Shown one piece after another: positions 7,118 through 39,174 of a DNA stretch of 39,532 nucleotides. Within the stretch, counting starts at the first letter, position 1; each line of letters opens with the position of its first letter. This DNA is from a virus. The notes beneath the pieces are model-generated. The model was not told where the DNA came from, ran no database searches, and saw only the letters and a list, made by a program, of their open reading frames with translations. The stretch lies in the IMG/VR virus record IMGVR_UViG_3300006751_000033, positions 1 to 39,532 of that record; one strand, 5' to 3'. Both the position numbers and the translations under genes were made by a program.

Positions 7118-8785
7118 TTAACCTCCAAACCTTGACGCAGGTTTGTACGGGTTTCTGTAACGCATTTTCTCTGAGTGCTTAATCTTGTCAAGGTCCTTAA
7201 TGGTGACCTGACCGGGTACATACGTCGACGATGGTACCTCATCCTGTACTTTGGTGAACTTTCTTTTTGACAAAATGTCAGCGGCCATGACGGCTGTTCG
7301 GGCACGGTCGAAGTGGTGTGTGGTGCCATCGAGTCCCTTCGCACGTTTCTTGCGACTACCATCGTAGTTCACAAGTTGGTGCAAAAGGCCGCGACTACGC
7401 ACTTCGATGTCTCCCTGCCGGATCATGCGTACCAGACGTGCCTCTGCTTCTTGGATGCGCTTGTCTGTGGCGTACCAGCCTGGGTGACTGCGATCGGTCC
7501 ACAGGAGGTTCTTTGCCCCGGAGTCTCGGAGAATGGCAATACAGGCTGTTGCGTTCGACTCAACGATTAACATTCCACCATTGTAATGTTTTTGCACCGT
7601 GAGTAGTCGACGAGCAAACTTTGCCGGGTCTTCCCGCTCTTCCCAAAAGGCTATCTCACGTCTCTCATGCGCGTCCCACACGGTCAGGGCAGACTTATCG
7701 CCCCGTGCGCCGAAGCCAGCAGGGTCAGCCGTGATGATGTACTTGGTACCTGCTTTGGGTGGGTCGAGTTCATTACACCCGTGCAGACCGATACTCGGGT
7801 CGTTGACTGCCTTGGCCAATGCAGGCTTGAGTACGTCTACCGGCATGACGGGGTTCAGTGAACCGATCCAACCATCATAAGGGTCGGATGGATACTTAGA
7901 TGTAAATAACCTATGGTCACCGACAAACTCAGTCTCAAGACCTAACCGCCTGAACGCAAGGTTCTCGTCAGACATACCTGGATGACGTGCTCGGTACGCA
8001 ATCTCAGAGTCTGTCGGTACGAACCCTTCGGCTGGTACACGACAACTATCGTCATCCCACCAGTTTAGGAACAGAGGCTTAAAGCGGCCACGTCCTTCCA
8101 TTGTAGAGTGCCACATCTGTTCGTGGTGTGACCCGGCTCGCCCAGGAGTGGACTCCAAGATGACCCGTGCGTTTGGGCGCTTGTTGATTGTGGGGAAGAT
8201 GTTGACCGCCGCTTTGCGCTGCCACTGCGCTTCACCAAACTCTGTGATGATGAGACGGTCAATGGATCGACCGACCGCAGGGGAGCGCCCACCTGCTGTG
8301 AGTACCTTAATGCCTCCACCGTGCAGGAAATGTATTTGGGTCGCCCCGGCCTTGCGGCCAGGGGCCAATGGCATCCTTACATCACTTGGTAATCTATGAT
8401 AGGCAAACAAGATTCGCTCGAACACATCCTCGGCAGTGTCTTGACGCTCAGCGATCAGTGTACCCTTTACACCGCTTAGATACATGCAGTCACGCAACAA
8501 GAGCATGACACTAACTGTAGTAATCTTTGCCTGACGAAACTTATTTACCATGACCCAGCGGTTTTGTGCCGCAGCATGCAGCAACCGTTTTTGAGTAGGT
8601 GTGGGGTTCATGTATCCTGTAGACTCGTCTTCACGCACAATCTGACACATAGACACAAATGCGTCTGGTGTGGCGAACATGGCCTGTATCTTGACCATGT
8701 TGAGTCCGTCTACATGAGCAAGCTTTGCCCCACTTGGCAGTCCGATTGGTCTCGAACCTTCCACACTTGCTTTCGTTTGCGCCAT
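7118..8785 (-). CDS. terL: Terminase large subunit (ATPase and nuclease)
   Basis: A 555-residue packaging motor protein and the first gene of the leftward operon; AGGTGG lies five bases before ATG. The ATPase half has the Q-motif-like PTPTQKRLL, then a P-loop region R84-Q-A-K-I-T-T90 and a Walker B-like strand RLIITEFGEA (177-186). The usual G in R-Q-x-G-x-(S/T)-T is a lysine here, an oddity. GRSIDRL and LESTPGRAG are also typical of the Terminase_6 type. The nuclease half has its acidic residues in ITADPAGFG (Asp354), IVESNA (Glu409) and HFDRARTAVMAADIL (Asp493, Asp503). It cuts concatemeric DNA and drives it into the head through the portal. Confidence 0.93.
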   Translation of the reverse strand: MAQTKASVEGSRPIGLPSGAKLAHVDGLNMVKIQAMFATPDAFVSMCQIVREDESTGYMNPTPTQKRLLHAAAQNRWVMVNKFRQAKITTVSVMLLLRDCMYLSGVKGTLIAERQDTAEDVFERILFAYHRLPSDVRMPLAPGRKAGATQIHFLHGGGIKVLTAGGRSPAVGRSIDRLIITEFGEAQWQRKAAVNIFPTINKRPNARVILESTPGRAGSHHEQMWHSTMEGRGRFKPLFLNWWDDDSCRVPAEGFVPTDSEIAYRARHPGMSDENLAFRRLGLETEFVGDHRLFTSKYPSDPYDGWIGSLNPVMPVDVLKPALAKAVNDPSIGLHGCNELDPPKAGTKYIITADPAGFGARGDKSALTVWDAHERREIAFWEEREDPAKFARRLLTVQKHYNGGMLIVESNATACIAILRDSGAKNLLWTDRSHPGWYATDKRIQEAEARLVRMIRQGDIEVRSRGLLHQLVNYDGSRKKRAKGLDGTTHHFDRARTAVMAADILSKRKFTKVQDEVPSSTYVPGQVTIKDLDKIKHSEKMRYRNPYKPASRFGG

Positions 8786-9168: not shown

Positions 9169-10242
9169 ATGTCCATCTCTACTGAACTTTTGAACACCAC
9201 CTTTGAGGACCTTCGTGGTCCCCTGGTGAACTCATTTGTTCGTAGCAGTGAACTTTTTGAGGCGCTTGACAAGAAAGCACGGATTCCAATGGAGAGCGGT
9301 ACACTCATCGAGCGTACTTTCTCTGGTGGTGCTCCTGCTCGTGGTGTCGGTATCTACGTTGGTGACGAACTTCTTAACATGACTCGTCGTCAAGAGATCC
9401 GTAAGTTCCAGGTCGAACCTCATAGGCTCGCTGTTGCGATCAACATTCCCAAGAAAGAACTTCAGATGAACAGCGGAAAACTCGCTGTGATCCGTCTCAT
9501 TGAAGAGTATCCCAAGACTGTTCTTGAGGGTGCGAAGGCAGACATCAACTCTTACCTACTTACAGGTACGAGTCGCGGTATTGTCTTCAACACCTCTGAA
9601 CTGGCTGGTCTGCTCACTCTGAACGGTGACGTCTCTACCGGTATCGGTACTGGCGTCGCTCACGGTCTTCTCGACTGGCAACCCCCTGCCAGCCAAGGTG
9701 ACAAGGTTCAGAATGTGACCAAGTCTTCTTCTTACTTCCACTTCAACCAGTACGCTGAAATGGGTGCTTATGGTACAACAGGTACGAAGATTCTTCGTTC
9801 TTTGTATCGTAAGTGCGCTCACTACGCTGGTGGAATGGGTAAGGGTCCAGACTTGTGCATCTTTGATGATGACACATTCGCCAACTTCGAGAACGATAAG
9901 TTGAGCAACGTTCGCGTTTCAGTCGTCGAAGACAAGACTGAAAAGAGCACAATGCTTGGCCTCGAACTCGGTATCGCTCAGGTCTATTCTTCTCTTGACC
10001 TGGACGCATCAATCATGACAACTACTCCTGCATCGGGCGCTACTTACGCACCTGACGAGGGAGCAGCTTACTTCTTGAACACTGACTTTATGGAGTTTGC
10101 AATGGCGGAAGCACCGACCATTAGCGAGTTCAAGGAACGTGTTGGTGACCAAGATGTTGTGACTGCTGTGTTCACTATGCAAGGAAACTTGATCTGCACC
10201 AAGACTCCCGCTCAAGGGTGTGTTGCTGGAGGTGCTGCATGA
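9169..10242 (+). CDS. Major capsid protein (HK97-fold type)
   Basis: A 357-residue protein, the usual length for HK97-fold capsid proteins without a protease domain. It starts with AAGG six bases before ATG. The N-terminal helix (STELLNTTFEDLRGPLVNSF) is followed by an E-loop-like stretch (GTLIERTFSGGAPARGVGIY), then a spine-like helix (GKLAVIRLIEEYPKTVLEGAKADINSYLLTG). A P-domain or A-domain part contains DLCIFDDDTFANFEN and, near the end, YFLNTDFMEFAMAEAPTISEF with a terminal beta strand (QDVVTAVFTMQGNLICTKTP). The stretch naming the position of the upstream tail (FLNTDFMEF) is common in such proteins. It is the first gene of the rightward operon and is expected to be the most abundant virion protein. 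Confidence 0.85.
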   Translation: MSISTELLNTTFEDLRGPLVNSFVRSSELFEALDKKARIPMESGTLIERTFSGGAPARGVGIYVGDELLNMTRRQEIRKFQVEPHRLAVAINIPKKELQMNSGKLAVIRLIEEYPKTVLEGAKADINSYLLTGTSRGIVFNTSELAGLLTLNGDVSTGIGTGVAHGLLDWQPPASQGDKVQNVTKSSSYFHFNQYAEMGAYGTTGTKILRSLYRKCAHYAGGMGKGPDLCIFDDDTFANFENDKLSNVRVSVVEDKTEKSTMLGLELGIAQVYSSLDLDASIMTTTPASGATYAPDEGAAYFLNTDFMEFAMAEAPTISEFKERVGDQDVVTAVFTMQGNLICTKTPAQGCVAGGAA

Positions 10243-18587: not shown

Positions 18588-19687
18588 GTTTTACTCTGCA
18601 CGATACCGCGATCTATAGCGAAGGCAGTGTTTTCGACACGGAAAAACACGCCGTCAATCTGTATTCGCCTAATCAACCTGAAAATAGTATCTATGGTTCG
18701 TTGAATGGGCGCTTAGGTGATGGCTCGTTTGCCCTTACAGGTCCTGGTGAAAGGAACTGGCCGGTACATAAATCGCATGTGTGGCCGACGTTAATGTCAA
18801 AGTCTTTCGGTACCGCTTCTCTGCTGACTGTCGAATACTTTAGCCAAAGCACTCCCGCTGGCGGTACTCCGTATAGCCATGCGCACCACCCCGAAAGATA
18901 TGGAACGATTGCAGGTACATCAATCAAGTTTTTCTTGCCCTACCCAAGTGTCAGCCACATCGACATATCAACTTACCTATCTATCTGGCGCCCTTTCTAC
19001 GTGTGGGACCATGATGGGGGTACTATGGACGCGGCTGATAGGAGGATTGTGACCTCCACGCCCGCAAGGTTACGGTTGGTAGTTGATAGCACACCTGTAA
19101 TGGAACGCGGACTACCATTTAGCGCTCAAATGAGCCCAGCACATACTGTACCTAAGCTAGAACTTGCAGACAGAGAAGATATTAAGGGTGACGTACGCAC
19201 GCACGAAGTTACCCAAGGGTTCTATAAATCAATGCACCACGTAGCATATCTGTCTGCTGGATGGCACGAAGCCCATATCGAGTACCGACTAGGTGACGCC
19301 ACCTTTGGTATGGAGTCAACGATCAAGCGCGGTAACCAGCTTGTTGACACAGATGTAGAAGTTGGGACGCGGCTTTTATGCGGAATACGTAATGCGCGAG
19401 TTCTGTCTTTTCGGGGACCACAGATATTCTCTATTCAGGGTCACGTAGGTGTACAAACTACTTCGAGACCTGTGACTTCGCGTGTCACCGTAGACTCTTG
19501 GGGCCGCGAAGAGAGCAGTAATACAGATAGGCTGACTTTGTACTTCAAACTTCGACTACTCCAACGAACGACCGTAGTATATATGTCAACTGAAAAAGGT
19601 GAAAAACTTATCCTGAAAGCAAAGAAAGAGACGGGTGAGTCTGATAACCTTACGGTAGTTGCATACAAACAACCGGAACAGACGTAG
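18584..19687 (+). CDS. Surface or fibre-type protein related to the preceding one
   Basis: A 367-residue protein that overlaps the previous stop by four bases (ATGA). It begins with a beta-like stretch (VNLYSPNQPENSIYGSLNGR) and then a linker with SFALTGPGERNWPVHKSH. Residues of about 215-275 (YLSAGWHEAHIEYRLGD, then VGTRLLCGIRNARVLSF) match the pattern of the preceding larger protein (ISPGNCVVELVVRR, then VGVMNASLNVITL), so the two probably come from a duplication. The C-terminus ends in charged KLILKAKKETGESDNLTV. It is likely to assemble with its neighbour at the tail. Family not recognised. Confidence 0.55.
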   Translation: MSFTLHDTAIYSEGSVFDTEKHAVNLYSPNQPENSIYGSLNGRLGDGSFALTGPGERNWPVHKSHVWPTLMSKSFGTASLLTVEYFSQSTPAGGTPYSHAHHPERYGTIAGTSIKFFLPYPSVSHIDISTYLSIWRPFYVWDHDGGTMDAADRRIVTSTPARLRLVVDSTPVMERGLPFSAQMSPAHTVPKLELADREDIKGDVRTHEVTQGFYKSMHHVAYLSAGWHEAHIEYRLGDATFGMESTIKRGNQLVDTDVEVGTRLLCGIRNARVLSFRGPQIFSIQGHVGVQTTSRPVTSRVTVDSWGREESSNTDRLTLYFKLRLLQRTTVVYMSTEKGEKLILKAKKETGESDNLTVVAYKQPEQT

Positions 19688-19703
19688 CCGTCAAAGGAGC
19701 AAA

Positions 19704-20444
19704 ATGGACTTGTTTTTTCCGCGACTAAAGCCCTGGCAATATGCGTTGCTTGCTTGCCTCTTTGTGATTTGTTGGGTTTTTGGTGCCCCGTTTGAAGTCG
19801 GCGCTGATGGAGTGGTGTACGCTGAGCCGCTAACTATTATTGCTGCGGGTATTGCGATGGGCGCCCTGTCGGGTGGCGCACAACTACTTGGTCAGCACGT
19901 CGCCCGAAAGAAGTACGAAGAGAGCGACATAGGTAAAGCAGAAGCTGCCATCCTCAAAGAGCAGGCGAAGATTGCCAAGACTCCGCTTGAAGAACTCGGA
20001 CTCACTGAGGGTCAGAAGCGTAAAGCTGTAACCATGGCACTTGAGCAAGCACGGTCGCAGAAACGTCAGCTTGAAGACCAACAGATGAGAGCGCGAGACG
20101 TGCGTGGTCCAGTACGCTCTGGTATCGAAGCTATCCAAGATACCAAACTGCGTGAAGCAATGTTGCAGGCAGGTGCGGCAGCAAGATCAGACATCGAATC
20201 ACAGTCGGCTCAGTTGGCTCTTGCTCGCAAGCAAGGGGCTCAAGGTGTCGTACTACCCGCAGCCCAATCCAGGCTTGCTCAGATGCAGCAAACAGCCGCA
20301 TTGGCGGGCTCCACATTCGCAGGCGGCGCCGCTGGTGGCGTAGCCGCTGCGGGTGGTTACTACCAAGGCGCAGGTGCTGGTACCGGTACCGGCACAACGA
20401 AGTACGTACAGACGCAGCAAAATGTAAACCCTACAGCTAAGTAG
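19704..20444 (+). CDS. Membrane-anchored virion or ejection protein
   Basis: A 246-residue protein; AAGGAG precedes the ATG by four or five bases, so I prefer this start to one 15 codons upstream inside the previous gene. The N-terminus holds one strong membrane segment (WQYALLACLFVICWVFGA) and then a second moderately hydrophobic one (LTIIAAGIAMGALSGGAQLLG). A long charged helix follows (HVARKKYEESDIGKAEAA to LEDQQMRARDV), and then an Ala/Gln-rich part ending in Gly/Ala/Thr low complexity. Small membrane-active proteins with this layout commonly lead the ejection-protein block of short-tailed phages, where they enter the cell envelope during DNA delivery. That role is inference from layout and neighbours. 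Confidence 0.55.
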   Translation: MDLFFPRLKPWQYALLACLFVICWVFGAPFEVGADGVVYAEPLTIIAAGIAMGALSGGAQLLGQHVARKKYEESDIGKAEAAILKEQAKIAKTPLEELGLTEGQKRKAVTMALEQARSQKRQLEDQQMRARDVRGPVRSGIEAIQDTKLREAMLQAGAAARSDIESQSAQLALARKQGAQGVVLPAAQSRLAQMQQTAALAGSTFAGGAAGGVAAAGGYYQGAGAGTGTGTTKYVQTQQNVNPTAK

Positions 20445-20455
20445 CAGGAAGTAAG

Positions 20456-23400
20456 ATGTCACAGTCTCAAATCACATCAACACTGATCTTGAACTACTTT
20501 AAGTCTCGGGGCATGGATACGTCTAAGGACCAGTCCCAAAACCCGGAGTTTATGCGAACGTACCGGGAAATAGCTGAGTCGATTCGTAAGTGGCACGATG
20601 GCGAAGATCGTGATGAGGCTCGCAGGGAACTGGAAGAAATGCGTCTTGCGTTCAAAGAGCGAGACTCTTTGCGTAAGCACAGCGCAGACCTCGCTCGAAT
20701 ATCAGTGACAGAAAAGGGGCAGATTCGTAGTGCAGGTGCCCGAGTAAAGTCAGCAACAATCGCTGCCCGCGCTAGAGTTGAGACAAGTCGCGCACGCGGT
20801 TTTGACGCCGCCGTCTCTAAGCTGGAAGCAGAACTCTCAACTACGATAGCAACTAAGGGAGCAGCCGACAGATTAGCGACTGCCATAGCTGGATCTCTTA
20901 CGGCTGAAGGTGAGTACGGTGGAATACCGTCAAGCGCATACACAAAAGTATTGGATTGGGCAGCGGAACAAAATATCGATTTTCGCAACCCGAAAGTATT
21001 GGAAAGCTTGAAAGACAATCAAGCAACTTACCAATCAATGAAGCTGTTTGTGCAGCGTGCGAAGACTGCTGATGATGCTCAAAGAAACTTAGTAGCACAA
21101 CTCGACGCAGAAGATGCGACCCAGGCAAAGTTACTTGCAGCACTTGATAAGGCAAAACAAAGTGACGTAGACACAGTTGCCGACCTTCAAAGACAACTAC
21201 AGCTAAGTACAGCCAAGTCAGCGGAACTCGTTGAAGGCATGGACATGGGTACCGACAAAGCCACTGTCAGTGCTCGAATCGCAAAGATCGATAAAGAAAA
21301 TGAGACGCTTAAAATCCTTGAGGCGCGTTTAGCCAAAATGGATGCACAGCTTAGCGCCGGCACTGGACCAGCAAGCGAAGACGCAATCATTCGTGGTCGA
21401 ATCGCAGATGTGATTGGTCGAGACAACTTCCGGCAGTGGGCCAAAGACAATGGCTATACCGAAGATGATATTGGCTACGTAAGATACGATGAAAACAATC
21501 GAGCCATTATATCGACCTTTGCCCCTGGAGCGAAAACTATCCGGGCAATGAACCAGTTTGAGCACCAATCAACGAACCCCAACAGGCACAGTCGTCTCTT
21601 GGGTCCAAGTTCACGCACGAATGAAATCCACGTCTTTGATATGGTGGTTGACCCCGCAACGGTAGAGCGGTTCAAGCACTCTGACGGTAAGTGGGTAATC
21701 TCAACCGATGAAGACGGCATTGAGCGGTACGTCACGGAAGGTGAGTCACGCGACTATCTCTCACGCTATGTAAGGCCAACAGTAAAAGTTGGTGTGGGGG
21801 ATGACGGGAAAGCCTATCTAAAGGCAGGTAGTGAAGCCAACCCGGTATACTACGAAGTCGATGGTGAAACCGGTAAACCGATTAACGGCGCTTACTATGA
21901 AAGAGCCGAGGGACCTAAAACATGGGTACCCAAAGCAGGTGACCTCGGACTGGTTCTCCGCGATGCCGAAGGAAACGCTACTCGCTATCTGCAAGCAGAA
22001 GACTTGGCAGATGTGGGTGCTGTTGACTTCTCTACGGCTACTGACGAAGATCGGCAGGCACTCAACTCAGAGTACGGTGACCTAAAAATCAGTGTCGTAG
22101 ACTCACCTCCTGCGGCTGCTACACGCACTGTAACAGCACGTCGACTCAAGACCGATGCGATGGACGTGTACCACGGACAAGGCGGTCAGAACCATCGAAG
22201 CTACATCGACGTGTCGACCAACTTAGAGTTTCGTATTGACCCCACCGAAATAAAGAACTTGAAGTCCTACCAGACAAAGTCGGACACCAACTTCAAGGAC
22301 TTCGCCAACTTCTTAGGTAGTCGTCGGCAGACCCGTATCGCGGAAAAAGCACAAGATACTTCCGAGATCGAATACGAAGAGAAGATGGTCAATGGTGTGA
22401 TGACAAGAGAGTACGGCAGCACCAAACTCAATGTGTTCGATAAGCTGCAAGGCAAGATCACTGGTCCTGACTTGAAGCCTGATAGGGCCGAAGCGAGTGC
22501 AATCACACAAGAACGCGCCGCCGAAGCAGCGCAAGAAGACCGTCAGCTTGCTCAGGATGCGTTGGACATTGCGCGTCAAGACAGAGAGGCTGCGACAAAA
22601 CGGTTTAACGAAGCTGCGGAAGATAGCCAAGAACGCAAAGACGCATACGCAGAAATGGTCGCAGCCCAAAAAGTAGTCCGTAAGTCCGGGGAAGCGCTAT
22701 CAAAGATCGAGCGCAAGCTTGCAAGAAAGGCTGACCCCGCTGCGCGCGTAACCGGCGCTGAGTTGACTGATGACGGTGATGTTACTGATGCTGCTGAACT
22801 TGTTGATGCGCCCACAACTACCACGACGAAACCCGCACCCGGTGAAGAAGAAGTTGATACAGATGAGCCTCGGTCACGTACTGACATAGTGACGGGTGAA
22901 GATGTTGATGTCACAAGCATTGCCGAAAGGGGTGCTGTACTTGCTGAAGCGAGTGATCTGGCCGAAGACTTGTCACTGAGCAGAATCAGTGCTGACCCTA
23001 CGGCATATCTGAGAAGACTCAATAGAGCCTACGAACTATCAGATAACGACCCCAAGTATCTTCCGCTTATTGCCCTGGCGCAAACGGAAGCAGGCTACCT
23101 GGATCGCGCGCAAAAAACGCTCGACAAGTACACACAGACTGAGGGTGTCGACATTGGCCCCGACTCGATGGCCATTTGGGTCACTGAGTATCTTGGCTCA
23201 ACAAAGCAAGAGCGGGCCCTAGCACGCGAAGACTTCGATGCACGTATGGCCGATCGCGAGTTCAAAGTAACTCCAATGGCTGATGAGTATTCATCGGTAC
23301 TTGCCGACATACCTGACATTGTCGCTTCTGGTGATCCTACGCAGGCTTTCGCTGACGCTCAGCTAAGGCGAGAGGGTGAGCACCCTGACCAAATAGTCGC

Positions 23401-24517
23401 ACGTCAACAAGCGGAAGCAGCGGCAGCTTTAGCCGAAGCAAACCGTATAGAAGCAGAGCGTGCGGCAGCAGAGCGTGTAGAGGCAGAACAACAAGAGGCT
23501 ATCGCAGGTTTAGAGGGTGTTGAAGAACCACCGTTAGATCCCAAAACTCAAGCCCAAGGAGTGCAGGCGCGTGCTGCGGCGACACTACGAAGACTGCTCG
23601 GGAAGCGACAAAGAGCATCTGCGGAAACGGCACCGACGCAAGAAGAAGCTGACGCTGTACTAAGTGACGCTGAACGAGATCGGGCGACGGCTGAACGTAT
23701 TAGACAACAGCGAGAAACAGATACGGCTATTGCGCAAGAGTCTGAGGAAGACACCGGTATTGCGGCAACCAACGAACAGGCCCGTCTTGCCGCAGAAGCC
23801 CGCGAAAGGTTGGATCAAGCAGATGCACTGGAAAGTACGCTCGAAGGTCAAGCAGCTATCGCTGAAGCTGAAAGAACGCCGACAAATCTGGAAGGCAGAG
23901 CCGACGAAACTGTGCGTTTGGCCCAAGAGCAAGCCACGGGCGACCAAACAGTCGCAGGCTTACTCGCTACGCCAGCCACACCAACCGAACTGGAGATAGA
24001 GCAAAAGCGTGCGGTAGCGGCAGAGAAGCGCAAAGAAGAAGAAGAAGACAAGCGGAAAAAAGATACTCAAATCGCCCAACAAGCTGCCGCAGGCGAAGGT
24101 ATTGACGCAACAGGCGTTACTCCGCCTACAGAGACTCAGACGGTAGAGGGTACCAATGATGAAGATGATGCCTTTAACATACAGTTTCAGTCGACGGGGC
24201 CTGAAGTCATAGACCCCCAAGGCGGTCCAAGCCTCAAGCCCGAAGCTGCGAAGGGGCCGACTGGTGCTCAAGACAAACAGCGTGCTCAGATACTTGCTGC
24301 CCTTCAAGGCAGAGAGAGTGCTGAGAGTAAGAAGCGCCAAGAGAGCGACAAGGGGCAACCAAGTCCCGCGTCACCGACAGAAACCGCAAAGGCCGGACCT
24401 GATACTATGGTTCCAAGTCTCAGTGACAAAGATAAAGCTGAAGCGAAATCACTCGTAGAGAAGATGCGCCAGATTCAGGACGTCATTTATGAAATGGACC
24501 AATCGGGAGTTGCGTAA
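20456..24517 (+). CDS. Very long coiled-coil virion protein, probably ejected
   Basis: A 1353-residue protein with GGAAG before ATG. Residues of about 30-310 are charged helix (KRQLE-type heptads). A region of about 320-700 is mixed and more folded (DDIGYVRYDENNRAIIS, NPVYYEVDGETGKPINGAYY). Residues of about 855-900 look like a TPR-like helical pair (ALAQTEAGYLDRAQKTLDKY). The last 400 residues are strongly charged, Ala/Glu/Gln/Arg-rich helix, with runs such as KRKEEEEDKRKKDT. The protein has no clear enzyme motif. Size, helical content and place between the membrane protein and the giant polyvalent protein fit an internal head or ejection protein that lines a trans-envelope channel. Confidence 0.55.
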   Translation: MSQSQITSTLILNYFKSRGMDTSKDQSQNPEFMRTYREIAESIRKWHDGEDRDEARRELEEMRLAFKERDSLRKHSADLARISVTEKGQIRSAGARVKSATIAARARVETSRARGFDAAVSKLEAELSTTIATKGAADRLATAIAGSLTAEGEYGGIPSSAYTKVLDWAAEQNIDFRNPKVLESLKDNQATYQSMKLFVQRAKTADDAQRNLVAQLDAEDATQAKLLAALDKAKQSDVDTVADLQRQLQLSTAKSAELVEGMDMGTDKATVSARIAKIDKENETLKILEARLAKMDAQLSAGTGPASEDAIIRGRIADVIGRDNFRQWAKDNGYTEDDIGYVRYDENNRAIISTFAPGAKTIRAMNQFEHQSTNPNRHSRLLGPSSRTNEIHVFDMVVDPATVERFKHSDGKWVISTDEDGIERYVTEGESRDYLSRYVRPTVKVGVGDDGKAYLKAGSEANPVYYEVDGETGKPINGAYYERAEGPKTWVPKAGDLGLVLRDAEGNATRYLQAEDLADVGAVDFSTATDEDRQALNSEYGDLKISVVDSPPAAATRTVTARRLKTDAMDVYHGQGGQNHRSYIDVSTNLEFRIDPTEIKNLKSYQTKSDTNFKDFANFLGSRRQTRIAEKAQDTSEIEYEEKMVNGVMTREYGSTKLNVFDKLQGKITGPDLKPDRAEASAITQERAAEAAQEDRQLAQDALDIARQDREAATKRFNEAAEDSQERKDAYAEMVAAQKVVRKSGEALSKIERKLARKADPAARVTGAELTDDGDVTDAAELVDAPTTTTTKPAPGEEEVDTDEPRSRTDIVTGEDVDVTSIAERGAVLAEASDLAEDLSLSRISADPTAYLRRLNRAYELSDNDPKYLPLIALAQTEAGYLDRAQKTLDKYTQTEGVDIGPDSMAIWVTEYLGSTKQERALAREDFDARMADREFKVTPMADEYSSVLADIPDIVASGDPTQAFADAQLRREGEHPDQIVARQQAEAAAALAEANRIEAERAAAERVEAEQQEAIAGLEGVEEPPLDPKTQAQGVQARAAATLRRLLGKRQRASAETAPTQEEADAVLSDAERDRATAERIRQQRETDTAIAQESEEDTGIAATNEQARLAAEARERLDQADALESTLEGQAAIAEAERTPTNLEGRADETVRLAQEQATGDQTVAGLLATPATPTELEIEQKRAVAAEKRKEEEEDKRKKDTQIAQQAAAGEGIDATGVTPPTETQTVEGTNDEDDAFNIQFQSTGPEVIDPQGGPSLKPEAAKGPTGAQDKQRAQILAALQGRESAESKKRQESDKGQPSPASPTETAKAGPDTMVPSLSDKDKAEAKSLVEKMRQIQDVIYEMDQSGVA

Positions 24518-24860: not shown

Positions 24861-25709
24861 ATGTCGTCATTATTTGAACCTGGAGAAATGGAGGCACTTG
24901 CCGAGCAAGCGCGTGCGCAGGTACAGGAAGCACCGCCTACGGAAGTTACGCCGGCTGTGGAAGCTGCACCGACAGGTGACCCACCACCGGTAGATGACCC
25001 ACCACCAGTAGGTACTCCACCACCAGTTACGAAGACTTCGGCGCCTTCAAACGTAGTAGAAGAAGCGACCGAACGTGCCATGGGCTACGAAACTCTTGTA
25101 AGTGACGCACGAAAGAAAGCTGAACTGGACGCTGCTTTTGCCGAAGCCGCAGCAGAATCAGCCGGTCCAGGCGACACCGCCGTCATGAGAGGTCGCTTGG
25201 AAGGCGCAAAGGCGAAAGGCGCTGAAGCTATACGTGCGGCAGAAGAACAAGTAACAACGCCACTTGCGGGTGGTGCGGGTAAGAGCACTGTACCGATATT
25301 GACCGGGTTTGGTAAGGACGACGATCCTGTAAATGTGTTCGTCGCCGCAGCGCGTGTTGCAGCAAAACAGAAGCAAGTAGAGGACGACTCGGGCAAGGCA
25401 GACGCAAAACGAAAAAGCAAGATCCGCGAACTGGCTGAGATTAGGCGCCAACCAAAGGGTCGAAGGGGTTACGCCCATCGAGGTTATACTGCGGGGCAGA
25501 CCACAAGAATCACTGGTTTGAGCGAAGAGATTGACGAGTTGGGTCAGCAAATAGAAAACTTGGGTAACCTAAGTAAGGCGTTGGAGTCTATTCGAGTCAA
25601 AACACTTGGCGATCTACCGGTCAAGAAGAAAATGCTACAGGAAGAAAAGAAGAAACTTGAAGGTGAGCCCACAGAGTTTGACCCTGAACGTTCTCGACGC
25701 GCCCAATAG
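24861..25709 (+). CDS. Pro-rich and charged protein in the ejection block
   Basis: A 282-residue protein. The N-terminus has a helix (EMEALAEQARAQVQEAPP) and a Pro-rich linker with three six-residue repeats (DPPPVD, DPPPVG, TPPPVT) near residues 40-57. After this come Ala-rich and charged helices (VVEEATERAMGYETLVSDAR, RLEGAKAKGAEAIRAAEEQV) and a basic stretch (RRQPKGRRGYAHRGY), with a final coiled part. No enzyme motif seen. I infer a structural or chaperone role for the adjacent giant protein. Confidence 0.5.
   Translation: MSSLFEPGEMEALAEQARAQVQEAPPTEVTPAVEAAPTGDPPPVDDPPPVGTPPPVTKTSAPSNVVEEATERAMGYETLVSDARKKAELDAAFAEAAAESAGPGDTAVMRGRLEGAKAKGAEAIRAAEEQVTTPLAGGAGKSTVPILTGFGKDDDPVNVFVAAARVAAKQKQVEDDSGKADAKRKSKIRELAEIRRQPKGRRGYAHRGYTAGQTTRITGLSEEIDELGQQIENLGNLSKALESIRVKTLGDLPVKKKMLQEEKKKLEGEPTEFDPERSRRAQ
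24978..25031 (+). repeat. 18-bp tandem repeat coding for a Pro-rich linker
   Basis: Three 18-base units (24978-24995, 24996-25013, 25014-25031) encode DPPPVD, DPPPVG and TPPPVT. Each keeps the CCACCACC core. The period is six codons, so expansion or loss keeps the frame. Confidence 0.7.
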
Positions 25710-25721
25710 TTGGAAGGTTAA

Positions 25722-28700
25722 ATGGCAAACGGCATCTACATCGACCCCGATATTCGTCAAGAGCAGATTAACAAGCTTTCCAGTAGTCTGAATGTGTCAT
25801 CCGAAGAGGCTGCGACTCTATTCGATGAGCGTGTGGCTCAAGGATACGATGAACCAGAACCAGTTGAGGTGCCTGAGATTAAAGTGCCTGAGATTGAGCC
25901 GCCGAAACCGATAGAGCGGCCTCCGATAGAACGTCCCGAGGCACCTCGAATCACCAGCGACTACGGCGAAATGTCTGAGAAGCGTACACGGCCGCACCAG
26001 GGCATTGATATTGCGATGCCTATAGGTCAGCCGGTTCCATCCCTTTCATCAGGGACTGTCACTAAGATAGTTAAAGAAGAAGATGGCGACGGAGGCGGAC
26101 TGCGTGTTTATGTACGTGACGACACAGGTATGGAAACTCGGTACATGCACGCCAGTAGGTTTCCTGAAGACATTGAGGTTGGTACTCAAGTAGAAAAGGG
26201 TCAGCCTATTATGTTTGCCGGTGACACCGGACGCGCGACTGGACCTCACCTACACCTTGAGACGGGCAAGATTGAAAGCGGCGGTAAGTTTGTTCGTATA
26301 AATCCAAGCAAAGCTTACCCACAATACTTCAGTGTCGGACCTGGGCCGAGAGAGACACCCGAACACCTCCAACCAGACTTTAAGCTTGAGATACCTACAC
26401 TGCTGACCAGTCTTGAGTTTGCTCGCAGAGAAGTTACTGCTGGGAGAGATAAAGAGTCCAGTATTCCAAAAAAGATTGAACGGCATGCCCAAGAGATAGG
26501 CATTGACGTAAAACGTCTCCGAGAAGCAGCAGGGGTGCAAGGTATCTCACTTGGGTACATGGTAGACGAAGTCAGCAGGAAAGGTCGGCCCGCAGAAGAG
26601 GTCATCCAAGAAGCCAAAGACCGTGGGGTATACGCGTTCTTGGACCCCGAGCAACGTGCTGCGCGAAAGAAACGAGGGGCACTTGGTATAGAGAAAGCGG
26701 TAGCAGAGTTTCGAGAGACTGGCGATCACACAGTCTTATTGGACGAGTTTGGCGACGATGTCTACAATCCAGGCGAGGCGATGCCGTTCCTGGGAGGTCA
26801 GGCTGTTGACTTTGCTGATGTAGCGAAGCCAGATGAGCAGATGTATCAAGCGGCTTCATTGATTGCTGACGCGATAATGAATGACGATGAGGCGTCTAAG
26901 GTTGTCGATGCGTTTAGTGAGCACTACAACGGGGCTAAGAAGTACGCGGACAGCCGTACTCAACAGTATCTCAAGAAGAACAATCTCACACCTGCCAGTG
27001 AAGGTTACGCTGAAATGGAGCGTAAGTTCAGGGATAGATCCGTTAGAGAGATAGTTGCGCTCAAGACAGTCGGTATGTGGACTGGCCCGATTATCATGCC
27101 GGAAGAAGAACTACTGGAGTCCGCAGCCGACAAAGATCTATCTGATCGGTTCTTCGACGCGCTCAAGCCAACTGTTGAAGTTGTCGGTATTCGGAAGGTC
27201 GGCAATAAAACAGAACTTGTGGTCAGAGAAGAAAACCCACTACTCTACTTTCTCAACCTAATCGACATGGCAGCATCGGCTGGTGTGGGTGCTCTATCTG
27301 CCGAAGGTGACAGGCTTGAAGGTGCCGTTGAGGGCATGGAGGCTCGACGTAATCCGTTTGAGGCAGCGATTGATAGTGAGTTTGCTGAGAAGAACGCGGC
27401 AACCAAGACCATCGCGTTTATCGGTGGTGGCTTAATAACCATTCTGACTCCTGACCTATTGGTCGGCGCGGGTGGAGTGGCTAAACTATCATCGAAGCTG
27501 CTCGACGTAGTAACGACAAACCGTGCTGCCAAGAGAGGTAGTCAGCTTCTGGCGGATCTCTCAGTCGCACGGGGCGCAGAAGACTACGAAAAGGCGTCAG
27601 AACTCGAAGCAACATTGCGTAGTGAGTTCAAAGAAGCAGGCGGCTTAGCCGATCTTCTTGATGTTCTTGACATGGAAGCAGCCCACCTTTTAGCGAAAAA
27701 TAACCCCGAAATGATCGATGGCGAGTTTGTTCAAAAACTTGCGATCATTGATGCGTCTATAGTTAGCGACTCAAGCATTGGCCCAAGGGCGCTTGCTCTA
27801 CATCCATCTTTCCGTAAGCCTCGGTTGACTGCGACCGAAGGCAATAAAGGAGCAATGGGTGTCGGCTACGGTGGTGAGGGTGGTGGTCTGTATGAGACCC
27901 AAGATATTCTTGACGAGTTGAACGCAGCAAAGAACGAGATCCTGGCTTCTGGTACAGGCGGCAAGCTGACACAGCTACAGACAGCAAGCGGAAAAAACGT
28001 ACAAAAACTGGAAAGACTCGTTGAAGCTGTGGATGACCCCGAAGGTGCGCAGTTTATCGCGCGACTAAAAGATTCACTTGCAGATGCTATCGACGACCCG
28101 AAGGCATGGAGACATAGGTTTCACGGTGACGGAAACCTCGAAAGTGAGTTGGCTCAAATCACAGCACTTCGAGGCCCGACACAGGAACAGATTACGGAAG
28201 CAACAAACTACGCTCGACGGTTTCCTGCGCCCGAAGCGGAAGAAGTACTTAGAAAACTTCAAACCGAAGCGAAACTTGCTAAAGGTCGAAGGAAGAAGAT
28301 ACACAAACTCTTGGTTAAGATTGAGACAAAGGCCAAGAATGTTGAAGACCCGCTGGTCATCGTGGATCGCGCCATCGAGACAGTGCGGGCCAACAATGAA
28401 GCCCGTGGTATCGCAGCCAAGCTACTTAGTGAAACTCTATCAGGCTCAAGAAAACTCAAGCCAGTCACGGGCGACCCACGAATCGCGTTGCCCAAGGGTG
28501 CAGTAGAACTGAGTGGTGAGGCTAATGTCCTCGCAAACAAACTCGGGGACGCCTACGACGTCACTGATGAGCAGGCACGCGCTCTGGCAAGTATCATGGA
28601 TGCTCGGGCAAGAGCCTGGGGCACAGCCAACGGCAAACCCGCAAGAGACTACTTCAATCAGAATATCTCGAAGATCGTCAAAGGCGAAGACGTCAAGAAG

Positions 28701-31700
28701 CCCCTGTTTGAAATGAACGAAGTCGAAGGTGGGCTGGTCGAGATCACAACCAAAGAGATCAAAGACGCAGATGGCTTTGGCCTCATGTTCCGCGTACAAG
28801 ATGATGTCTTGTCAGTAAAGACGGTAGAGTTACCTCCCAACTTACGCGGTCAAGGTATTGGTGCGGCACTGTACGGACGCGCACTGCAACACGCCAAGTC
28901 TCTTGGTAAGGGCTTCGCCAGCGATGTAAGCCCAAGCCCTGACGCAATAAACGTATACGAAAAACTGATCAAGCGAGGCGCACCAATACGTAGGCGCCAA
29001 GTAGACCTGCCGGATGGCACATCGACACGACAATATATTGTGTCAGCCGATGACCTCGCCAAAGCTAACTTGAAGGGTCTTGAGACAATCACCCCAAAAG
29101 CTTCAGAAGTTGTGGCGGAGCAAGTTACTAAGACAGAACAAGTCTTGGGCATACGTAACTTAGACAGAGCAGGGTTCGAGTCAAAGATAAAAGAGTTGAA
29201 GACGGGTAAAGCTGTCGCACGTTTTCTTGCGAGTGATGCCGAAAATGCTTCTGACCGGATGATCGCGTTCCGTATCATTCCGTACCTTGACGACGTAACC
29301 GTAACCGTGGTGAACGATGGTGTAAGAGCGCCAAGTCGGATTGCTCAGACTTTCAAGTATTCTACCGCATCAGGTTTGTCCCAAATAGACTCGAAGACAA
29401 AAGGTGCGCGAGTATTCCTTCGCGGCATAGATATTGGCAATAACGGTATTAGCGCAGAAACTGTACTCCATGAACTGCTACACGCTGTCACCCAAAGACG
29501 TATCAAAGACGGATTGCTTATAGCTAATCAAGGGACTGAACTTAGCAAAGCCGTAATAGCACTCAATGACCTAACAAGGGTAGTTATTAAAGAGTGGGAG
29601 GCTGCTAAGTACCCCGTTGTACCGGGCAACCTAAACATGGATGAGTTGCTTGCCTGGGGTTTAAGCAACAAAGAGTTTCAAGATTGGCTACAAACAATCA
29701 AAGTTGGTGAGCAGACTGCGTTCAACAAGTTCGTACAGGTTATTGCTGACCTACTCGGTATACCTCGCGGAGAAACAAACGCATTAAGTGAGGTTCTTCG
29801 GCTTACTGACGATATTCTTCGTGCGCCGATTGAAGACCTACCTAAGACAAAGTTTCTCGGTAAGGGTGATGACGTTACAGTCGAAGTAGCAGCGGCTGAA
29901 ATGGCCACGACAAGGATGATGCCACCAGCAGTTGAGATTGCGTCAGACGGTCGAGCAGTGCTCAATGCGTTTGTGCAACCAACGCTCACGGGCGCTATTC
30001 GCGGCATGGCGCATGTGTTCAGACGTGACATCGATCCTAATGACTTAAAAGTCATTGAAGAATGGTGCGGGGTCAAGAACGGTCGGTGGACTGAGATTGC
30101 TGAAGAGAAGTGGGCGCGAGGCTTCGAGAGTTACTTGGCCGAGGGTATCGTACCCAATGATGCAGTACAGACCGTGTTCAATAAGTTCAAGGTCTGGATC
30201 ACCGAAGCGTATCGTGGCGTGATTGGCTCCCCTGTTGACGAGCAAGTACCAGACAACATTCGTCGCGTAATGGATCGGCTGCTCACAGAACAGCCGCCTG
30301 CTGAACCACCATTCAAGCGAACCTTAGAAGCGATGAGCCTGGGCAGCACCAGTCAGATTGTTGAGACTGATGTAGACCCGTTGATGGAGTTGGCAAAAGC
30401 TGCACGTAGTCAAGGCTTACGTAACTCAGAGCCCAAGCTGATCTTGTCTTCACTTGAACAGAACGGGGCAGTTGTCTTTACAAAACCTGTCGAGATCAAT
30501 GGCGTACGAAAGAAAGTGTGGACGGAAGAAGACATTGCTGAGTTGCAGTTAAATATGGAGTCTAAGTCTCGTATTGCGAAGCAAATGGAAGACGCACCAG
30601 AAATCTCTCTGCGCGATGTACCGAAAGCCGAAGCAGCCGAGGCAATCGACGAAAAAATACTTGCGGCAGTTGGTGGTGACGATGCGCTGCGTCGAACAGC
30701 GCGGTTGGCTGTTTACACCGTACTTGGTGGTGACAACGTTGGTGTCGTAATGCGTCGACTGCGTCCCGAGCACAGACACTCAGCGGAAGCTGCGAGTCGG
30801 TCAGCAGAACAAGCTATCGGTGACGCGATTACGCATGTGTCTGAAACAGGCTCTAAAGGTGGTATGGAGCGCCTGTTTCAGTTTCTTGGTGGAGTGAAGA
30901 CCAAGTTCAGGGCAGGTCGTGACGCTCTTTCATCGGGCGAGGACTTTATAGGCTTGTCGATGCTAACCATGCAGAACACTATTCAGTCTCTTGCAAAGGT
31001 TAAAACAACGGTAAAAGGGCCTGACGGTAAGAAGAAAACACTACTCGACTTCCTCGGTGACATGGCCGAGGCGACTGATGGGCCCGAAGGATTCAAGAAA
31101 GGCTACGAAGCTTTCATGAGTGTGGGATCGAACAAACAGGCAATGTCGAAGGTTTTTGACGCATTAGGCGACAAAGGCAATCAGATGTTTGCTGACCTTA
31201 TGGAGAGTTTCTACCAGGGGCAGAAGAAGCGCCCCGAAGAGGCTCAGTATTTGAAACTGATGATGGAAGCTACCGGATTACACATCGGTCAAGTTACGGA
31301 CCTCAAAGGCGTCGAAAGAGCCCAAGCGATGTTTGAAGGCATCGAAGATATATATGGTAGAGAGGGTGCCTTACGCGCGTCTGTTCTACTTGCTGCCCAC
31401 GGACAAGCCGCCCGTTCGCGCACTATTTGGTCAGGGTTGGGGCTCGCTATTGACCAAGATACGATGAAGGCTTGGAGAAGCTGGTTGAATGGTGAGACGA
31501 TTGACTCTGACATGATCCCGAAGATGCACGAAATGTTGCGTAACTACGGGATGCGTCCCGAGTTTGTTGATGATGCTGTAATGGAAGCAGGCTTTTACAT
31601 ACCAAGAGCAGCGAGAGAAAAACTCACAGAAGTATTGGCGAAAGCAAAAGTCATAGAAGACCCTGAAAAGATGACGAGTCTCCAAGAAGTAGGTTCGTTT

Positions 31701-33779
31701 GTAAAGTTTATCTACACCTACATGAAGACCCGTATGACCCGTGGTGGATTCTTTGTGCGTCAGCGTTACTTCCTGATGAATACAGTCGACCACTTCAGCC
31801 AGATGGCGATGGTTTCGGGATACAGGCCCGCACTTGCATCAACTGTTCGAGTAGCCACGCAAAACGTGATGGTGCTTCCTGGCGTAGCGCACACACTCGG
31901 GTTGATCGACAAGGTAGGTGGTGCTCAAACAGCAGAGAATCTACGTAGAGTCCTTCAATCCGGTGGAGACGCAGCGGCCAACGCTGTTGGAAGGATGCTT
32001 AATGTCTCGAAGTACCGCATTGAAGTGAACCCGATCTTGGAGGGTGTTGCTAGGGATGGCAGCAGAACATTCCGATTGGTCGACCCCAAAACAGGGCAGG
32101 CCAGGTTCTATAACTACGATGACATTCGACGAATCGCCGTTGAAGAAGGTATCTTCGCCAGCTTCGACACCCGAGAACTGCAACGCTCAATCAAAACGGG
32201 TATGCGTGTTGAGGCTGATGCGTTTTTCAAAAATACTGACGGTATTGGATCGGCGGCAGGTCGACGAGTAAAGGAAACACTCGGCTTCTTTACCGACAAT
32301 GTAGCCAAGACAGCAGAAGCTTGGTCCGAGCGTGAACGTATCGGCGCCTTAGTGACTCTCATGGAAACGGGCATGGAGCCGAGACAGGCTGCGCGACTCG
32401 TTATCGACGGATTGTTCGACTACGCAGGCTCGATGAGCAAGTTTGACCGACACATGATTGTCTCATCCCTGTTCCCATTCTGGGCTTTCCAAAAGAACGC
32501 AAACCGCCTTATCCTACGTCAACTGGCTACACCCGCAGGTGCGTATCGAATGGGTGTGTTGCGCCGGTCTTACACAACCAGTGCTGAAGCAATCACAGAG
32601 TTGCTGTATGAACGTGTAGCTGACCCTTACGGCCTTGACGCCGAGAGGATGCCGCCTGAACTGCAAGACAAGTATTACTTCCTACGGAACATGATCGAGA
32701 ACGGATACGGGCCGCTGGAAGACTTGAAAAATCACCCCGAAGGCTCAGTCATCATCGAGACTATTGAAGAAGACTACGGCCCAATCGAATCAATCGACCC
32801 CGAAAAACGGAAGATACTTGAGCAGGGTTACGGCGGTTACGCCAATACACCAAGAGACATGCGTGATGCGCTCCGACTTTACTTCGCGGGGAACGCTGAT
32901 GGGTTCGTTGAGGAACTTGAGTCAAAGGGTGAAGCAGGTCAAATGGTTAGTTTGGCGGGCAAGTTGCGTGAACGTATGCACCAGATTCAGCCGATGACGG
33001 AAGCGGGTGAGACATTCTCTGACTTCTACAACGCTAAGCCAGGTGAGTCTGCGAGACGTAACTTTCACAGAGACAGGGTCGGTGTTAGTCTCAAACCTGC
33101 GATGACAGAAGACACGCGCAAGTTTCTACGCATGGTTCGCAACGATCCCGTCACCGGGTTCAATGATGTGTACCTGGACATTCTGTACCCTGACAGCACA
33201 ATCTACGCGGGTTTACGTCATGCTGCGGCAGTGATCGCCTTACCCATTATCGGTCTTCGCGCAATGTTCGTAGATGAAGACACGAATATAAAAAATGCCA
33301 TGATACGTTCTGCGCTGGACATGATGGGCGACCCACTGGACTCCCCACTACCCAACTTGATTGCGTCTGCGTTTACTGAGAGAGACTCAAGACCTCGACG
33401 CCTCAATGTAGACCTTGCTAAGGACCTGCGCGGACTCAAGAACATGGGTGTCCCATTACCTACGATTACTATCATACCTGGTGTGAGAGATGAGTTTGCG
33501 CCAGAGGGTGAACAAGTCATCGAGAAAGAAAGAGCCTATATGTCAGGCGGTACAGGCTCTATGCTCTTCGCTCTCACACCTCTTGGCGAACTCAATGATA
33601 TTATGGCTCGGTTGGAAAAAGCGCCGATTCAAGAGCGTATGGGCATACAGGGCGAACTCCTGCAATGGGCCGAAGTTCTCCTGGGTCTTCAAGTTGTGGA
33701 GACTTCACGTCAAGTGTCTGCAAAGGCAGATGCACCTAAGTTTGATATGATTACGTCAACACCACCTATACCCAAGTAG
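25722..33779 (+). CDS. Giant polyvalent virion protein: M23 peptidase, GNAT-like and zincin domains
   Basis: A 2685-residue protein, the largest here, with GGAAGG before ATG. After a Pro-rich linker comes an M23 (LytM-type) peptidase with all expected metal and active-site residues: H92 and D96 (HQGID), H143 (RYMHA) and H176/H178 (HLHLE). A hydrophobic segment lies near residues 563-590. A GNAT-like region has LPPNLRGQGIGAALYGRAL (R1042-G-Q-G-I-G). An HExxH zincin follows (H1250-E-L-L-H1254, with likely third ligand E1308). Around 1440-1530 is a helical block common in phage polyvalent proteins (KWARGFESYLAEG). The C-terminal part has SKFDRHMIVSSLFPFWAFQKN, typical of large polyvalent proteins. 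I infer that it is packaged and ejected: M23 would open peptidoglycan, and the other domains act inside the cell. Confidence 0.8.
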   Translation: MANGIYIDPDIRQEQINKLSSSLNVSSEEAATLFDERVAQGYDEPEPVEVPEIKVPEIEPPKPIERPPIERPEAPRITSDYGEMSEKRTRPHQGIDIAMPIGQPVPSLSSGTVTKIVKEEDGDGGGLRVYVRDDTGMETRYMHASRFPEDIEVGTQVEKGQPIMFAGDTGRATGPHLHLETGKIESGGKFVRINPSKAYPQYFSVGPGPRETPEHLQPDFKLEIPTLLTSLEFARREVTAGRDKESSIPKKIERHAQEIGIDVKRLREAAGVQGISLGYMVDEVSRKGRPAEEVIQEAKDRGVYAFLDPEQRAARKKRGALGIEKAVAEFRETGDHTVLLDEFGDDVYNPGEAMPFLGGQAVDFADVAKPDEQMYQAASLIADAIMNDDEASKVVDAFSEHYNGAKKYADSRTQQYLKKNNLTPASEGYAEMERKFRDRSVREIVALKTVGMWTGPIIMPEEELLESAADKDLSDRFFDALKPTVEVVGIRKVGNKTELVVREENPLLYFLNLIDMAASAGVGALSAEGDRLEGAVEGMEARRNPFEAAIDSEFAEKNAATKTIAFIGGGLITILTPDLLVGAGGVAKLSSKLLDVVTTNRAAKRGSQLLADLSVARGAEDYEKASELEATLRSEFKEAGGLADLLDVLDMEAAHLLAKNNPEMIDGEFVQKLAIIDASIVSDSSIGPRALALHPSFRKPRLTATEGNKGAMGVGYGGEGGGLYETQDILDELNAAKNEILASGTGGKLTQLQTASGKNVQKLERLVEAVDDPEGAQFIARLKDSLADAIDDPKAWRHRFHGDGNLESELAQITALRGPTQEQITEATNYARRFPAPEAEEVLRKLQTEAKLAKGRRKKIHKLLVKIETKAKNVEDPLVIVDRAIETVRANNEARGIAAKLLSETLSGSRKLKPVTGDPRIALPKGAVELSGEANVLANKLGDAYDVTDEQARALASIMDARARAWGTANGKPARDYFNQNISKIVKGEDVKKPLFEMNEVEGGLVEITTKEIKDADGFGLMFRVQDDVLSVKTVELPPNLRGQGIGAALYGRALQHAKSLGKGFASDVSPSPDAINVYEKLIKRGAPIRRRQVDLPDGTSTRQYIVSADDLAKANLKGLETITPKASEVVAEQVTKTEQVLGIRNLDRAGFESKIKELKTGKAVARFLASDAENASDRMIAFRIIPYLDDVTVTVVNDGVRAPSRIAQTFKYSTASGLSQIDSKTKGARVFLRGIDIGNNGISAETVLHELLHAVTQRRIKDGLLIANQGTELSKAVIALNDLTRVVIKEWEAAKYPVVPGNLNMDELLAWGLSNKEFQDWLQTIKVGEQTAFNKFVQVIADLLGIPRGETNALSEVLRLTDDILRAPIEDLPKTKFLGKGDDVTVEVAAAEMATTRMMPPAVEIASDGRAVLNAFVQPTLTGAIRGMAHVFRRDIDPNDLKVIEEWCGVKNGRWTEIAEEKWARGFESYLAEGIVPNDAVQTVFNKFKVWITEAYRGVIGSPVDEQVPDNIRRVMDRLLTEQPPAEPPFKRTLEAMSLGSTSQIVETDVDPLMELAKAARSQGLRNSEPKLILSSLEQNGAVVFTKPVEINGVRKKVWTEEDIAELQLNMESKSRIAKQMEDAPEISLRDVPKAEAAEAIDEKILAAVGGDDALRRTARLAVYTVLGGDNVGVVMRRLRPEHRHSAEAASRSAEQAIGDAITHVSETGSKGGMERLFQFLGGVKTKFRAGRDALSSGEDFIGLSMLTMQNTIQSLAKVKTTVKGPDGKKKTLLDFLGDMAEATDGPEGFKKGYEAFMSVGSNKQAMSKVFDALGDKGNQMFADLMESFYQGQKKRPEEAQYLKLMMEATGLHIGQVTDLKGVERAQAMFEGIEDIYGREGALRASVLLAAHGQAARSRTIWSGLGLAIDQDTMKAWRSWLNGETIDSDMIPKMHEMLRNYGMRPEFVDDAVMEAGFYIPRAAREKLTEVLAKAKVIEDPEKMTSLQEVGSFVKFIYTYMKTRMTRGGFFVRQRYFLMNTVDHFSQMAMVSGYRPALASTVRVATQNVMVLPGVAHTLGLIDKVGGAQTAENLRRVLQSGGDAAANAVGRMLNVSKYRIEVNPILEGVARDGSRTFRLVDPKTGQARFYNYDDIRRIAVEEGIFASFDTRELQRSIKTGMRVEADAFFKNTDGIGSAAGRRVKETLGFFTDNVAKTAEAWSERERIGALVTLMETGMEPRQAARLVIDGLFDYAGSMSKFDRHMIVSSLFPFWAFQKNANRLILRQLATPAGAYRMGVLRRSYTTSAEAITELLYERVADPYGLDAERMPPELQDKYYFLRNMIENGYGPLEDLKNHPEGSVIIETIEEDYGPIESIDPEKRKILEQGYGGYANTPRDMRDALRLYFAGNADGFVEELESKGEAGQMVSLAGKLRERMHQIQPMTEAGETFSDFYNAKPGESARRNFHRDRVGVSLKPAMTEDTRKFLRMVRNDPVTGFNDVYLDILYPDSTIYAGLRHAAAVIALPIIGLRAMFVDEDTNIKNAMIRSALDMMGDPLDSPLPNLIASAFTERDSRPRRLNVDLAKDLRGLKNMGVPLPTITIIPGVRDEFAPEGEQVIEKERAYMSGGTGSMLFALTPLGELNDIMARLEKAPIQERMGIQGELLQWAEVLLGLQVVETSRQVSAKADAPKFDMITSTPPIPK

Positions 33780-38776: not shown

Positions 38777-38787
38777 GGATGAAAGAA

Positions 38788-39174
38788 ATGGAACCTGTTA
38801 CATTGACCACAATCGCCGTTCTTGCGTCCTTGGGTGTCGGTTTCGGTGCAGGGTGGGGCTTGAAGCCAGATGCAGGTACAAAAGCGATTGAGGCGCAGAC
38901 AGAGGCCATTAAAGAACTAAACAGCGGTAACGAAGCGCTCGTCACCAAAGTTCAAGAAGTCGCAGTCGAAGAAGCTAAACGTGAGACGGCTATTGCCGAT
39001 AAACTCACTGATATGCCACCTCCCTGTATCAAAGAAGTCGGGGGAGATCCTATGTCATTGCAATGTATGTGGGCTCTGTGTATCAGAACAGGTGAAACAG
39101 ATAAGCAACGATGTGAGCCATCCAAGTTGACGGACAAGCTACTCGGGTCTTATAGTTGTACTGAACCGCAGTAG
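38788..39174 (+). CDS. Membrane-anchored protein with cysteine-rich C-terminus (spanin-like candidate)
   Basis: A 128-residue protein. I prefer this ATG, eight bases after AAGGA, to the one at 38779, which touches the AAGG. The N-terminus has one membrane segment (TIAVLASLGVGFGAGWGL) and then a helix with heptads (AIEAQTEAIKELNSGNEALV, VEEAKRETAIADKL). The C-terminus has five cysteines (in PPCIKE, LQCMW, ALCIRT, QRCEPS, YSCTEP). Single membrane anchor, periplasmic coil and short cysteine tail are in line with an inner-membrane spanin, but I see no certain match. Confidence 0.5.
   Translation: MEPVTLTTIAVLASLGVGFGAGWGLKPDAGTKAIEAQTEAIKELNSGNEALVTKVQEVAVEEAKRETAIADKLTDMPPPCIKEVGGDPMSLQCMWALCIRTGETDKQRCEPSKLTDKLLGSYSCTEPQ

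Follow-up and report, generated by a model that had tools for sequence, protein, structure and literature searches.

A putative ejection protein of a podovirus-type phage joins an M23 peptidase, a GNAT-like domain and a zincin cassette absent from a sister phage

Which role could be served by a 2685-residue viral protein in which a cell-wall peptidase, a GNAT-like domain and an HExxH zincin share a single chain? The question is raised by the window, the whole stretch of 39,532 bases that was analysed, which is record IMGVR_UViG_3300006751_000033 of IMG/VR. The record is classed linear and the window is therefore probably a fragment of a virus genome. An earlier note on this DNA had proposed that one particle protein opens the wall and then acetylates and cleaves host proteins. 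The genes that frame the question are the following.

4805-6541 (-): portal (phrog_332/156; 91% identical in the sister record L089)
7118-8785 (-): large terminase (phrog_2, E 1e-19; 94% identical in L089)
9169-10242 (+): major capsid protein (phrog_9953, E 6e-15; 88.5% identical in L089)
19659-20444 (+): 261-aa membrane-type protein that opens the presumed ejection cassette (role assigned by position)
20456-24517 (+): 1353-aa protein at a gp15-like position (syntenic in L089, 31% identical over 691 aa)
24861-25709 (+): 282-aa protein directly upstream of the large gene (syntenic in L089)
25722-33779 (+): putative polyvalent ejection protein, 2685 aa (reading frame open throughout; assigned by gene position)

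The order terminase, portal, capsid, tail-type genes, 261-aa protein, 1353-aa protein, two short proteins and 2685-aa gene is preserved in the 71.5-kb sister record L089. The 261-aa protein displays two hydrophobic segments and is 80% identical and syntenic in L089, while a family search with the 1353-aa protein gave no clear match. Following the tail-type genes, the 2685-aa gene is the last and largest of the ejection cassette in both records, which is where podophages encode their large ejection protein (PMC8954989). Late structural genes lie downstream, followed by a spanin-like gene.

Several observations were made elsewhere in the two records. Between 37054 and 38776 (+), proteins of 122-128 aa (starts at 37054, 37450, 38024 and 38408) each match the L089 and L096 counterparts of the others; they constitute a repeated gene family, probably of structural proteins. 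The spanin-like 131-aa protein (38779-39174, +; a weak match) shows 92% identity to its counterpart in L089 and 83% to that in L094, values far above those of the neighbouring structural genes. Past the spanin-like gene of L089, the ORF at 19293-19868 is similar to phrog_3000 (E 1.5e-37) and, at E 6e-14, to the end of endolysin family phrog_33083; it is likely to be a separate lysis enzyme, whose equivalent position would lie beyond the end of the window. At the left end of the window, the ORF at 2-1009 (+), open at that end and with an Ala/Gly-rich tail, shares 25% identity over ~300 aa with the ART-PolyVal region of L013 (E 7e-11 when three sequences were compared). A Pfam search with this ORF alone returned no match, and it probably represents the C-terminal end of a further ART-type protein.

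Along the 2685-aa protein the following parts are recognized, all on the + strand.

25929-26336 (+): M23 endopeptidase domain, residues 70-205 (PF01551; PDB M23 matches)
27411-27467 (+): hydrophobic stretch, residues 564-582, separating wall hydrolase from cargo (Kyte-Doolittle only)
28698-29063 (+): GNAT-like domain, residues 993-1114, with acetyl-CoA loop R1042-GQGIG (PF00583, alignments, model, Foldseek)
29097-29918 (+): active-zincin cassette, residues about 1126-1399 (the block missing from the L089 protein)
29469-29483 (+): HELLH zinc motif, residues 1250-1254 (position and invariance)
29643-29645 (+): E1308, putative third zinc ligand (invariance; modelled on a helix further along)
29919-30326 (+): zincin-like domain 2, residues 1400-1535, without its HExxH motif (homology to zincin 2 of relatives)
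30000-30014 (+): R1427-GMA-H1431 at the HExxH site of relatives (alignment)
30327-33776 (+): C-terminal backbone specific to the lineage, residues 1536-2685 (in L010 and L013, ~40% identity across the last 785 residues)

The N-terminal domain is identified from its sequence with certainty as an M23 peptidase. PF01551 covers residues 91-182 (Pfam, E 8.9e-20) and the family signature is complete, with the HxxxD and HxH metal site and the catalytic histidine (H92/D96, H143, H176/H178). The intact set listed in the earlier note is found residue for residue. M23 peptidases of the PDB are matched with E values down to 6e-14, two of them deposited as 'Gp16' and 'Internal protein', and the metal and catalytic residues are retained in the L089 sister protein. 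A plasmid search yielded, among the matches listed, M23 matches only. Since M23 domains occur in phage endolysins as well as in tape measures, the protein might be taken for a late lysis enzyme or a tail-associated M23 lysin in which GNAT and zincin are mere passengers. This is very improbable given its length of 2685 aa, its location within the structural cluster, the separate, weakly matched spanin-like gene at 38779-39174, the endolysin-like ORF beside the counterpart gene in L089 and the membership of the zincin in a family of virion proteins. The separate endolysin-like ORF of L089 led to the rejection of the lysis enzyme.

Between the M23 domain and the cargo, residues 564-582 are weakly hydrophobic (Kyte-Doolittle 1.5-1.8). 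Similar segments are present in L089, L010 and L092, and the proteins of phiKMV-like phages and of a Limnohabitans phage likewise carry a hydrophobic segment ahead of the zincin. The succession of an N-terminal wall hydrolase and a zincin is also seen in the Limnohabitans phage and in Parlo.

About 0.03 HExxH motifs are expected by chance from the composition of the protein; the motif alone is thus suggestive, and homology decides. The zincin region is covered by no Pfam model. By tblastn, residues 1130-1376 match internal virion proteins of phiKMV-like phages and of a Limnohabitans phage, and also Xanthomonas phages CP2 and SAC and the DarB-like protein of Serratia phage Parlo; phiKMV-like gp37 and a 'DNA ejectosome component' are among the homologues. 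Residues H1250, E1251, H1254 and E1308 are invariant in all six named-phage sequences and in 42 of 42 sequences of a set (41 distinct environmental relatives) that was selected by HExxH, where E1308 alone provides an independent test. Compared with solved structures, the family profile matches 9sfn_G, an 'internal virion protein' (E 3.6e-46), 8vb2, a 'tetrameric ejection protein (gp48)' (E 1.8e-6), and the N4-type virion RNA polymerase (E 5e-5); a paper on N4 polymerase mentions the HExxH motif. The structural model (pLDDT 80) displays strands 76-81, 102-106 and 113-118, a helix at 129-148 bearing HExxH and a helix at 190-199 bearing the glutamate. This agrees with the description of polyvalent zincins in PMC5512222 as a three-strand sheet with an HExxH helix and a glutamate on the following helix. 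Foldseek found nothing significant for this model in the PDB; among viral models it returned internal core proteins (E 6e-8), a transglycosylase protein and polyvalent proteins, the best E value being 3e-15. At the level of sequence, homology of the zincin to phage internal virion and ejection proteins is certain, and the H1250-E-L-L-H1254 motif with its likely third ligand E1308, as previously read, is in place and invariant in a virion-protein family.

A second zincin, absent from the earlier note and one of the new points here, follows directly. The match to the second zincin of CP2 and SAC spans residues 1439-1528, and the domain is homologous to zincin 2 of CP2/SAC, L010, L092 and L094. 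All of these relatives keep HExxH, which is lost in the window (RGMAH) and in L089 alike. The second zincin is presumably dead.

The GNAT-like turn means nothing alone, since ~1.3 RxxGxG motifs are expected by chance from the composition of the protein, and here too homology decides. PF00583 scores 22.4 bits on the segment (E 1.5e-4), where the curated cut-off is 20.7, and the L089 protein has the same Pfam match. In a scan of the collection, for which the GNAT profile proved too variable, a single GNAT sequence matched the sister contig only. In an alignment of seven sequences (window, L089, L092, L094, L096 and two Drulisvirus internal core proteins), R1042, G1043 and G1047 are invariant. 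An AlphaFold model of residues 976-1126, built on a five-sequence alignment, has a mean pLDDT of 82 and retrieves acetyltransferases at the top of the Foldseek list, RimI first (prob 1.00, E 6e-5, TM ~0.4-0.5), with the usual N-terminal helices abbreviated. The R1042-G-Q-G-I-G turn pointed out by the earlier note is in place, and the modelled fold of segment 993-1114 is that of a GNAT, weak by sequence. The abbreviated N-terminal part, the borderline Pfam score and the moderate TM-scores would suit a degenerate, non-catalytic remnant of the acetyl-CoA fold that serves as a spacer or binding module, and the second zincin illustrates that this protein retains dead domains. Such a remnant is nevertheless doubtful, given the invariance of the three loop residues and the fact that residues 1051-1100, with 45 of 50 identical, are the 50-residue block of the whole protein most identical to L089. 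Chance as the source of the motifs is refuted by homology.

Across 2391 aligned residues the L089 protein shares 68% identity with that of the window, and it keeps the M23 domain, the GNAT and the dead zincin. In contrast, residues about 1126-1399, comprising the whole active zincin, are missing from it as one clean block, of which no copy was found elsewhere across the 71.5-kb L089 record. The cassette has a GC of 0.466 and a GC3 of 0.431, against 0.507 and 0.498 for the whole gene, and its GC3 falls in the lowest 0.2% of equal windows, a descriptive figure as these windows overlap. Because the GC3 of the cassette is the lowest in the gene, its gain in the line of the window appears more likely than its loss in L089. 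Similar differences are observed between cultured phages. The large proteins of CP2 and SAC (L006, L005), with 98% identity, are set apart by a single 137-aa block, which sits between the two zincins of CP2 and holds its GNAT-like unit. The internal core proteins of Drulisvirus phages SFN6B (L003, 4532-8794) and VLC3 (L102, 3811-7509) are 80-85% identical and are distinguished by two closely spaced gaps, SFN6B residues 225-242 and 251-420, the larger containing the GNAT; most of the GNAT-zincin stretch of SFN6B is covered by only 7 of 325 matching phage records. These comparisons indicate that neither the GNAT nor the active zincin is a fixed part: both are optional and are gained or lost as whole cassettes on a backbone that persists. 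Presence and absence of a cassette among sister phages is a new point and worth following.

The same block bears on the target of the zincin, which might be a maturation protease that cuts its own protein to free M23, GNAT or C-terminal parts and has no host target. Self-processing has been proposed for polyvalent zincins, and according to PMC5512222 DdrB of phage P1 is trimmed to ~76 kDa ahead of packaging; a zincin beside disparate enzymes would also suit self-release. Set against this, L089 retains M23, GNAT and backbone although its record lacks an active zincin of the family and its second zincin is dead, and the N4 virion polymerase, which carries a homologous zincin, is described in the same source as packaged uncut. 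Self-processing by these zincins is ruled out as an obligatory step by the L089 protein and, as the explanation of the active domain, is unlikely. A host target is favoured because the L089 protein has no intact motif of either zincin.

C-terminal to the zincins, conservation of the protein is confined to this lineage. The earlier note had taken this block as typical of large polyvalent proteins, a description that was not confirmed: a Pfam scan of the 2685-aa protein detected no LPD domain, and a C-terminal profile compared with the LKD16, Limnohabitans phage and Parlo proteins gave no match. To our knowledge, an LPD-type domain is not present in every polyvalent protein. Nothing significant was found for the block among solved structures, the C-terminal half had no match among named phages or in species genomes, and the whole-protein seed search detected no close relatives. 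Homology to named podophage ejection proteins was detected for the zincin (and GNAT) only, and neither over the full length nor over the C-terminal part. Proteins sharing the backbone carry other domains. The 4690-aa protein of L013 has an ART-PolyVal followed by a PBECR5 RNase at residues 2492-2813, L092 and L094 have an ART-PolyVal immediately after the GNAT, and L093 combines the GNAT with a transglycosylase. One of the two GNAT families in Iyer et al. is described there as usually adjoining an ART (PMC5512222), as in L092 and L094. In the 4227-aa protein of L010, long cargo regions without a Pfam match (residues about 784-1838 and 2092-2898) lie between shared backbone parts and are candidates for new effector domains.

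The architecture can be placed among known systems, and its description as unusual in the earlier note was overstated: GNAT and zincin, with or without another wall hydrolase, occur together in named phages (CP2, SFN6B/KpV48, Parlo), and M23 is the uncommon part. Polyvalent proteins, a class defined by Iyer et al. in 2017 in which zincin is described as the commonest domain, were already reported there with zincin, GNAT and wall hydrolases (PMC5512222). A polyvalent protein holds at least two unrelated domains in one phage polypeptide, and here M23, GNAT and zincin lie in one; the zincin is common to the N4-type polymerase and the DarB-like protein of Parlo. The likeness extends to the very large size, the unrelated enzymes including a peptidoglycan hydrolase, and the ART-PolyVal and PBECR5 of same-backbone relatives. 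In contrast, the main text of PMC5512222 names lysozyme, SpoIID-type and DD-peptidase domains and not M23, and the window protein has a dead second zincin and no LPD domain that was found. The gp37 of phiKMV-like phages (LKD16; solved homologue 9sfn_G) is similarly the third and largest gene of its ejection cassette and has the homologous zincin with HExxH and third-ligand glutamate; M23 and GNAT were not found in it, its C-terminal part is not detectably related and it is half as long. The internal core protein of Drulisvirus (SFN6B gp40, KpV48 gp48) places a GNAT directly before the homologous zincin, but it has 1420 aa and no M23, and the GNAT block is missing from VLC3. The large protein of Xanthomonas phages CP2 and SAC (CP2 ORF24) presents zincin 1, a GNAT-like unit (CP2 only, a weak match) and zincin 2 in that order, with an N-terminal LPD22 in place of M23 and a zincin 2 that retains the HExxH lost from its homologue in the window. 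The 3764-aa DarB-like protein of Parlo combines wall hydrolase, zincins that include the homologous one, and GNAT; unlike the window protein, its hydrolase is a transglycosylase, its GNAT lies far from the homologous zincin, and helicase, methyltransferase and LPD39 are added. T7 gp16 is likewise a large ejection protein with an N-terminal wall hydrolase (PMC8954989), in this case a transglycosylase with no GNAT or zincin described, and the likeness drawn here is one of position and size. The ejection-protein papers PMC8954989 and PMC11440229 name neither acetyltransferase nor zincin domains.

With all three domains of the earlier note real and joined in one protein at the position of a large ejection protein, the protein is best read as a component of the particle whose first task is to open the wall. 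It is rather probable that it serves a podovirus-type phage as its large ejection protein, the counterpart of T7 gp16 or phiKMV gp37 in position and size, and has turned polyvalent, wall-opening and carrying exchangeable cytoplasmic cargo. Gene position and homology to virion proteins suggest that it may be packaged in the virion. It would be ejected ahead of or with the DNA, the M23 endopeptidase would cut peptidoglycan cross-links at entry, and the hydrophobic segment of the long linker would lodge in or at the inner membrane. The order of domains around this segment would leave M23 periplasmic and the other enzymes cytoplasmic, where GNAT and zincin may act on host proteins, the former probably acetylating protein amino groups and the latter probably cleaving a host protein, perhaps one of defence. 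The dead zincin may be retained as a structural or binding module, and the conserved C-terminal backbone may be needed for packaging or ejection.

A bolder and only tentative proposal is a 'cargo slot' in podophage ejection proteins, located after the membrane segment and ahead of the C-terminal backbone, that receives whole effector domains (GNAT, zincin, ART, RNase). Such domains would be gained and lost among close relatives, probably tracking host defences; the zincin of the window may then have been inserted recently and may inactivate one specific defence protein of the host as the DNA enters. Phage pairs that differ by one cassette, the zincin in the window and L089 and the GNAT in CP2/SAC and SFN6B/VLC3, are natural experiments in which the effect of one injected domain could be measured with the ejection machine otherwise undisturbed. 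Since phages of the Drulisvirus and Xanthomonas pairs are in culture, the question is accessible to bench work. Injected polyvalent proteins are a predicted and hardly tested phage weapon, on which such pairs may bear.
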